Below, piece after piece: positions 15,715-17,481 of a DNA stretch of 64,000 nucleotides. The DNA comes from Flavobacterium sp. (GTDB lineage: Bacteria; Bacteroidota; Bacteroidia; Flavobacteriales; Flavobacteriaceae): positions 31,423-95,422 of the forward strand of contig VEQT01000002.1 in the NCBI GenBank assembly GCA_018883065.1, written 5' to 3'. Below the pieces are notes generated by a model, which was given only the letters and a program-made list of their open reading frames with translations, searched no databases and had not been told where the DNA came from. Numbering within the stretch: the first letter of the stretch is position 1; every line of letters begins with the position of its first letter. The position numbers and the translations under genes were made by a program.

Positions 15715-16455
15715 TTAGTCCATCTTGAGGTAAAAATCTCGTGTAAGTGCGCTGTATTCAGGTGTGTATTGGTGTCGATCTTTTTCGATAACCAATTCGT
15801 TTGTGGGAATTTTAGCCAAGGTATTTCTGCTAAAAGCCAATAAACTGCGTACAATTGCAGTAGTCGGATTGCCTTTTACCCGGGTAATTTTGTAGGGGAA
15901 AAGTTGGTTTTGGGCACATAGTGCTATAAAACGTTCTTCTTCTTTAAAGGGAATAATTACAGCTAAAATACCTTCGTCGCTCAGCAACAAATCGGCGGCT
16001 TCAACCAATTCTTCAAAAGGTAGTGCGTCCTGAAATCGAGCCAAATCACGCGCAACGTCATTGGTTTTGAAGTCTTCACTATAAAAGGGTGGATTACAAA
16101 CAATAAGATCATAACAATTGGATTCGCCCACTTCTTCTTGCTCGGCTTTGGCTTCTTCTACCAATTCATCCAAAGCGGCATGGTAACAAAATAGCCGATC
16201 GCGCCAAGGTGATTGTTCAAAATTATCTACGGCTTGTTCGTAGGCATGTTCGTCAATTTCAAGCGCATCAATCTGAAAGGCAGAACTGCGTTGGGCCAAT
16301 TGTAAAGCAATCAATCCCGTACCAGCGCCAATGTCTAAAATGCTCTCGGGCATCAAATCAAGTGGTGTCCAAGCGCCAAGTAATACTCCGTCGGTGCCCA
16401 CTTTCATGGCAGTTTTGTCTTGATTGATGGAGAATTGTTTGAATTTAAAGTGCAT
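15715..16455 (-). CDS. tRNA1(Val) (adenine(37)-N6)-methyltransferase
   Basis: KFKQFSINQDKTAMKVGTDGVLLGAW, DIGAGTGLIALQLAQR, VCNPPFY. Track start 16503 reads through a repeat array; ATG 16455 preferred. Confidence 0.9.
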   Translation of the reverse strand: MHFKFKQFSINQDKTAMKVGTDGVLLGAWTPLDLMPESILDIGAGTGLIALQLAQRSSAFQIDALEIDEHAYEQAVDNFEQSPWRDRLFCYHAALDELVEEAKAEQEEVGESNCYDLIVCNPPFYSEDFKTNDVARDLARFQDALPFEELVEAADLLLSDEGILAVIIPFKEEERFIALCAQNQLFPYKITRVKGNPTTAIVRSLLAFSRNTLAKIPTNELVIEKDRHQYTPEYSALTRDFYLKMD

Positions 16456-16458
16456 TTT

Positions 16459-16510
16459 AAAATTCCAATTAAAAAATTCCAAATTCCAAATTCCAAAATC
16501 CAAATTCCAA
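16459..16510. repeat. AAATTCC word array
   Basis: aaaattccaattaaaaaattccaaattccaaattccaaaatccaaattccaa. Confidence 0.85.
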
Positions 16511-16522
16511 AAAAGGAATTAG

Positions 16523-16913
16523 TTATGAAATTTTCGTTTTATTTATAATTGCATAAAATATTTTTCTGATTTCTTCAACTTCGGTTAATAGAATTTCAGA
16601 TTGGTTTGAAAACATTGAATTCATTTCATGAAGTAACTTCAACCAGTATTTTGATTCTTTCGCTTCTTTTCTGGATATCTTTAATCGAAATACAAAATCT
16701 TTATCACCTAGTTTTTCGTTTGCTTCAATATAATTGGCTCCAATCGAACCAGAGGATCTTACAAGTTGTTTGCCGTCCTCAAGATTAGAAATTGTTTTAG
16801 GTAATTTAGAAATATAAATTCGGCAACTTTTAGCAAATTGAAAGGTGCGTTCTTCAAGGTTGTATATTTTTTCTATCTAATTTTTGTTTGGCTTTTATAG
16901 TTTTTAATGGCAT
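16523..16913 (-). pseudogene. Four-helix-bundle (S23/23S-rRNA IVP-like) protein, frameshifted
   Basis: Manual reading: MPLKTIKAKQKLDRK (frame 1) then IYNLEERTFQFAKSCRIYISKLPKTISNLEDGKQLVRSSGSIGANYIEANEKLGDKDFVFRLKISRKEAKESKYWLKLLHEMNSMFSNQSEILLTEVEEIRKIFYAIINKTKIS* (frame 2); +1 nt in T6 at 16867-16872 (A6 on coding strand). Absent from ORF track. Confidence 0.87.
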
Positions 16914-16956
16914 ATATTGGTTTTTGGAATTTTATAGTTTGAATTTTGAAATTTTT

Positions 16957-17481
16957 CTAGAAATACATCTCTACCAAGCCTTCTGGCAGATTCATTTTAA
17001 CCTTCTTGTTGGGGCGATCAATTTCAATCAAAAACAGGTCAATCATGGGAATGAGTAGTTCAACCGAGCCGTTGAGTACTTCAAAAAGCGGTTGCGCCGT
17101 CGAGTCGTTTACCGATTGGATTACACCTATAACACCCAGGCGTTTATCTTCTATTTCAAAGCCGATCACTTCGTGGTAGTAGAATTTATTGCCTTCTAAT
17201 TTGGGCAATTGACTCAGCGGAAGATATACCGCACAGCCCACTAATTTGTCGGCTTCTTCTTCGTTGTCGACATCTTCAAATTGCACACGTAAAAAATCAT
17301 TTTTGTGCAAGGAACTGCTAGAAATAAAATATGGAACCAGATTTTTGTTGAACTCAACAAATACTGATTCCATATCTTCATATAATTCGGGTTCATCGGT
17401 GTCTAGATAGACAAGTACTTCTCCCTTAAAACTAAACTTTTTTGCGACTTTACCTAAATAGAAGCAATCCTCTTTACGCAT
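16957..17481 (-). CDS. rimM: 16S rRNA processing protein RimM
   Basis: CFYLGKVAKKFSFKGEVLVYLDTDEPE...NKFYYHEVIGFEIED...LLIPMIDLFLIEID. Confidence 0.95.
   Translation of the reverse strand: MRKEDCFYLGKVAKKFSFKGEVLVYLDTDEPELYEDMESVFVEFNKNLVPYFISSSSLHKNDFLRVQFEDVDNEEEADKLVGCAVYLPLSQLPKLEGNKFYYHEVIGFEIEDKRLGVIGVIQSVNDSTAQPLFEVLNGSVELLIPMIDLFLIEIDRPNKKVKMNLPEGLVEMYF

Follow-up and report, generated by a model that had tools for sequence, protein, structure and literature searches.

An S23 four-helix-bundle gene between inverted heptamer arrays in Flavobacterium, and a candidate two-part system of S23 genes and dispersed hairpins

S23/four-helix-bundle genes are, to our knowledge, common orphans without known function. 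The setting most like the one described here is the 23S rRNA intervening sequence of Coxiella and Leptospira, in which terminal inverted repeats form a stem and a PF05635 reading frame occupies its loop; in Coxiella the terminal stem is 28 bp long, the loop holds the S23 open reading frame, and the sequence is excised by RNase III (PMC4990558). The present locus, found in a 64,000-nucleotide stretch of a Flavobacterium genome (hereafter, the window), shares this anatomy, together with patchy presence, loss and vertical upkeep (PMC4990558). It differs in lying outside rRNA, between rimM and a tRNA methyltransferase gene, and in that arms of its type consist of 7-8 bp units in tandem, each clade having its own unit, with gene-less hairpins of that unit dispersed in the genome.

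REPIN/RAYT (TnpA-REP) systems are alike in placing a gene between inverted short repeats and in having cognate gene-less palindromes that are dispersed and track the gene, a likeness drawn with kinship ignored. There is also mostly one gene per repeat family and, at the rimM site and for the AAATTCC clade only, vertical inheritance. Unlike the Y1 HUH nuclease of those systems, S23 is an all-helical, Avd-like bundle, and its repeats are heptamers or octamers in tandem. Avd of the diversity-generating retroelements shares the fold (4dwl, 8ub7 and 8ube; TM about 0.75); unlike such retroelements, the window genome has no reverse transcriptase, and no template or variable repeats were seen on plain reading of the loci.

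Heptameric intergenic repeats have been described as TAACTGA in Beggiatoaceae (PMC4679880), and as GGGAATC in Xanthomonas and GGGGA(C/T)T in Nostoc (PMC4692102). Like the arrays reported here, they form period-7 intergenic arrays, sometimes in inverted pairs, at positions that are stable between species. Unlike them, they were described without a partner gene, and S23/four-helix-bundle proteins are named in neither paper (PMC4679880, PMC4692102). They have been called unexplained, with the comment that 'no mechanism is evident' (PMC4679880), and lack a detailed literature (PMC4692102). In the literature searched we found no earlier report linking an S23 protein to heptamer arrays, which is no proof of novelty; the partnership is widespread and, it appears, undescribed.

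The features of the window locus are collected in Table 1. A first-pass annotation had proposed an S23 four-helix-bundle protein on the minus strand, and this is borne out: in a profile search the protein matched PF05635 and no other family, at 61.3 bits against a curated cut-off of 33.8 (E 1.1e-16), and its AlphaFold model (pLDDT 91.6) is an up-down four-helix bundle like those of solved PF05635 members. The solved S23 proteins 2rld and 2gsc are its top fold matches (TM 0.79-0.85), with Avd of the Bordetella phage retroelement (4dwl, 8ub7) lower in the list. Its invariant polar residues are Q37, R40, N48, E51 and E74, numbered as in the window protein. Rfam gave no family at the locus.

Table 1. 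Features of the rimM/methyltransferase spacer and its neighbours (positions in the window)
Feature	Position	Strand	Basis or remark
tRNA methyltransferase, trmN6-like, downstream neighbour	15715..16455	-	identity taken from the first-pass annotation and from context
AAATTCC heptamer array, downstream arm of the unit	16460..16513	+	three heptamers more than in L039
exact 12-bp repeat AAATTCCAAAAA, left copy	16502..16513	+	sequence
S23 (PF05635) coding frame	16523..16876	-	117 codons and stop; start ATA where L039 has ATG; profile match and alignment
lost start codon (ATA)	16874..16876	-	alignment with L039
degenerate GGAATTT array in inverse orientation to the downstream arm; upstream arm	16917..16952	+	36 nt pair with 16454-16489 at 83% complementarity; forms the closing stem when the strand is folded
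exact 12-bp repeat TTTTTGGAATTT, right copy, reverse complement	16921..16932	+	sequence
rimM, upstream neighbour, co-oriented with S23	16957..17481	-	80 homologous loci

The gene had been read as frameshifted, to be repaired by removing one A from an A6 run. Alignment with the nearest relative, L039, in which the protein is 92% identical and the gene intact, rules out a frameshift or extra A, since the 117-codon frame of the window is open. What differs is the start region, which reads ATG GAA AAA ATT TAC in L039 and ATA GAA AAA ATA TAC, in the same frame, in the window. In L039, with its intact gene, the upstream ATG chosen in the earlier reading meets the same stop as in the window, and is therefore not the start. 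The window frame has no in-frame start ahead of the conserved core and does not read as a translatable gene. The lesion is thus a lost start codon, ATG to ATA, or a one-base assembly error; as a single-base change in a MAG, it could conceivably be the latter.

The 12-bp inverted pair and the AAATTCC array continuing beyond it, both noted in the first-pass annotation, are present and belong to longer arms, which pair as a stem when the strand is folded and enclose the open reading frame as terminal inverted repeats. The array, which is the only lag-7 array within the window at the threshold used, starts a few bases from the methyltransferase ATG (at 16455, minus strand). It is 21 bp longer than in L039, having grown by three heptamers.

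Orphan S23 genes in general have inverted arrays of 7-8 bp units as arms. In the window genome, all six S23 genes lie within short arrays, each with its own unit; in five the arrays are clearly inverted, and in one (L006) they match only in part. Scoring arms by local alignment of one flank against the reverse complement of the other, with a threshold of at least 16, we found arms at 85% of 94 Flavobacterium S23 loci from 61 genomes, against 2.3% of random window pairs (n=400) and 8.4% of mismatched S23 flanks. At matched loci, arms were present at 14/14 S23 genes, compared with 0/80 for rimM, 0/78 for rpsP and 3/75 for the methyltransferase (0-4% for neighbours). The best arm period was 7 in 90 and 8 in 57 of 164 cases. 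In an independent metagenomic viral set, 88% of 41 distinct viral-contig S23 loci had such arms, against 4.5% of mismatched flanks, and 11 of 16 plasmid loci scored at least 15, among them loci from Cyanobacteria, Gemmatirosa (Gemmatimonadota), Azospirillum (Alphaproteobacteria) and Riemerella. Unrelated flanks at other S23 genes had been named as an outcome that would count against a repeat-bounded unit; when tested, the result favoured a unit. The expectation that other S23 genes have the same ends held for the sharing of inverted 7-8 bp arrays and failed for their sequence, as the unit differs per S23 clade and has no fixed sequence.

Each S23 clade has its own unit, which is AAATTCC for the clade of the window gene (clade A). 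Among 31 close S23 pairs at non-homologous places (at least 70% identical), 65% share the unit, compared with about 1% of distant pairs (Mantel 0/200). The unit also occurs apart from the gene: AAATTCC has between 0 and 119 exact pattern matches per genome, and the examples read are mostly gene-less hairpins of regular layout, which fold better than shuffled sequences (z -3.6 to -6.2). With kinship ignored, AAATTCC abundance is associated with clade A S23 (p 0.002) but not with clade B (p 0.29), and AGTGATT abundance with clade B (p 0.0005) but not with clade A (p 0.07). Genome size outranks S23 presence as a predictor of unit counts in these related genomes, though an S23 effect remains when size is accounted for (t 3.9). 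A 453-bp AAATTCC-bounded stretch of G006, considered as possible other cargo, proved to be two hairpins flanking an ordinary gene.

At the rimM site itself, the gene is an old resident. S23 adjoins rimM in 15 of 80 homologous rimM loci, always with AAATTCC arrays; most of the remaining loci have a short spacer without S23. Clade A is present in 11 of 61 Flavobacterium genomes, in 10 of these 11 at the rimM/methyltransferase site, and divergence of S23 and of rimM is correlated (rho 0.69, Mantel 0/1000). Occupancy of the same site and this correlation indicate a gene that is vertically inherited and frequently absent rather than recently inserted, and leave recent transposition between rimM and trmN6 unsupported. 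In two close relatives of the window (L037 and L038), flank remnants are kept and the gene is gone; both appear to have lost S23 by deletion. Empty sites, a check proposed with the first-pass annotation, exist as short spacers lacking S23, but they are too diverged for the junction to be read, and no duplication was seen. Of the proposal that this is a small transposable or decaying unit, what stands is that gene and repeats form one unit and that this unit is decaying in the window genome; recent insertion gives way to vertical inheritance. An apparent inversion of S23 at the rimM site in L246 and L061 was set aside as a possible assembly error, since an arm of L246 holds a run of N and L061 ends at a contig edge.

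We think it reasonably probable that the locus is one copy of a two-part system, in which S23 recognises its cognate hairpin and promotes the spread or upkeep of that hairpin. One part would be a long hairpin with inverted 7-8 bp arrays as arms and the S23 four-helix-bundle gene in its loop, and the other the gene-less hairpins of the cognate unit scattered across the genome. The pairing of S23 genes with inverted arrays, its breadth, the correspondence of clade and unit, the scattered hairpins and vertical inheritance at the rimM site are all observed. As the simplest model, we infer that S23 binds these hairpins and drives their spread: the Avd-like bundle would recognise a hairpin of its own unit, as RNA or as single-stranded DNA, and would promote copying or upkeep of such hairpins through host replication and repair, which are proposed because neither a transposase nor a reverse transcriptase turns up consistently. 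The S23 gene mostly stays put and is passed on vertically, and the resident copy in the window is in decay, its start codon lost. Several observations weigh against the model: the comparison of G040 with G048 described below yielded neither a target duplication nor a fresh insertion, AAATTCC is abundant in some genomes lacking clade A S23 and missing from G055, which carries a distant clade A S23, and genome size predicts unit counts better than S23 does.

The main rival, possible if on the unlikely side and compatible with the recognition model, is a part in RNA processing comparable to the 23S rRNA intervening sequence. The arm stem would be cut by RNase III, S23 would bind and autoregulate or protect the cut RNA, and solo hairpins would be processing sites. 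The Coxiella anatomy set out above is alike, the arms form a closing stem on folding, and units lie between co-directional genes in the window and on several plasmids. Against this, folding of the whole element in the window does not reach significance (z -1.63), and RNA processing leaves both the clade-specific dispersal of units and new arrays within a coding frame unexplained. The latter are found in dxs, where a heptamer array stands in frame in place of about ten DXS loop codons in four related genomes (G040, G048, G013 and G026; L328-L331) and is absent in 26 others. The unit there differs in concert between genomes, three AAATTCC in G040 corresponding to three AATTACG in G048 in the same register, which hints at rewriting in place. 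A spacer about 2 kb upstream of rimM likewise holds different heptamer or octamer hairpins across Flavobacterium species (L071:603-650, L112, L055, L070), and together the dxs array and this spacer could reflect either repeated arrival at one place or in-place rewriting.

An arrangement in which S23 plays no part in making the hairpins is unlikely in our view. Heptamer hairpins would then be independent intergenic repeats, and S23 would insert into their loops as a safe harbour. A gene that landed in the loop of a hairpin would be expected to have matched arms as well, hairpins of many units are found in the rimM spacer and in one other, and hairpins outnumber S23 genes, with AAATTCC abundant in some genomes that lack clade A S23 (66 matches in G006, 44 in G049 and 40 in G057). 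This arrangement is opposed by the correlation between unit and protein clade across non-homologous loci, and by unit abundance that specifically tracks the cognate clade.

That the hairpins are an ordinary MITE family, with S23 as a passenger and mobility supplied by a transposase or reverse transcriptase encoded elsewhere in the genome, seems improbable. Their size and dispersal are MITE-like, and Y1 presence is weakly correlated with unit count (rho 0.37), but with genome size and S23 in the model Y1 is no longer significant (t 1.4). Genomes with many AAATTCC matches can lack Y1 transposase (29 in G054, 18 in G053, 16 in G039 and 15 in G004), and reverse transcriptase (PF00078) had no match in the window genome or in the two genomes with most AAATTCC matches, G008 (119) and G042 (113). 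Neither enzyme is supported as an obligatory helper. No duplication was seen at the ends, and comparison of G040 with G048 gave no clean empty site, target duplication or fresh insertion: the G040 hairpins are nearly all shared, with compared flanks mostly 91-99% identical, and a few are diverged or replaced in G048 rather than cleanly empty. From this pair the hairpins appear not to move on a short scale; gains are seen on a longer one. At the G048 orthologue of L286 (G048:C150:3183-7504), about 4 kb part flanks that meet at a solo hairpin in G040, which suggests another insertion at that hairpin. Chance, that is, an accidental 12-bp inverted repeat around a decaying orphan gene in an AT-rich spacer, has a negligible probability. 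In its favour are the AT-rich DNA, for which the first-pass annotation had allowed, and the occurrence of exact 12-bp inverted repeats at least 300 bp apart in 12 of 2000 random 521-bp pieces of the window (0.6%); it is rejected because S23 genes of several phyla, at homologous and non-homologous places alike, have the same arms.

A wider form of the recognition model is one that we hold tentatively, as quite possible though short of even: a hitherto unrecognised cross-phylum system, selfish or domesticated, in which an Avd-like S23 protein, with neither transposase nor reverse transcriptase, would recognise heptamer hairpins and direct both their spread and their rewriting in place. If true, this cross-phylum reading of S23 would explain the heptameric repeats of bacteria generally, and the 23S intervening sequences would be its rRNA-resident members. 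The link between S23 and heptamers gives orphan S23 genes and heptameric repeats each a concrete, testable partner, offers in S23 a first testable cause for the seven-base repeats of many bacteria, and lets intervening sequences, orphan S23 genes and intergenic hairpins be viewed in one frame. It is also a warning that S23 genes beside CRISPR or other operons may be passengers of spacers.

Heptamer-armed S23 genes were seen in cas-operon spacers of three cyanobacterial plasmid loci (L263, L265 and L268; cas6/cas4 and cas10/cmr3), and the legend of a figure on CRISPR-linked genes in the FLSHclust study includes 23S rRNA IVP (PMC10910872); taken together, these suggest that CRISPR-linked S23 genes may be passengers. 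Among 365 loci, no exact TAACTGA match was found in arrays beside S23, so that the Beggiatoaceae repeat is tied to S23 by analogy only. The solved S23-like protein 2gsc (Xcc0516) comes from Xanthomonas campestris, a species reported with 186 GGGAATC heptamer arrays. Finally, in the tRNA-Leu intron of Nostoc, degenerate heptanucleotide repeats make up the hairpin of the P6b stem (PMC3488679), which may be a further home of heptamer arrays.
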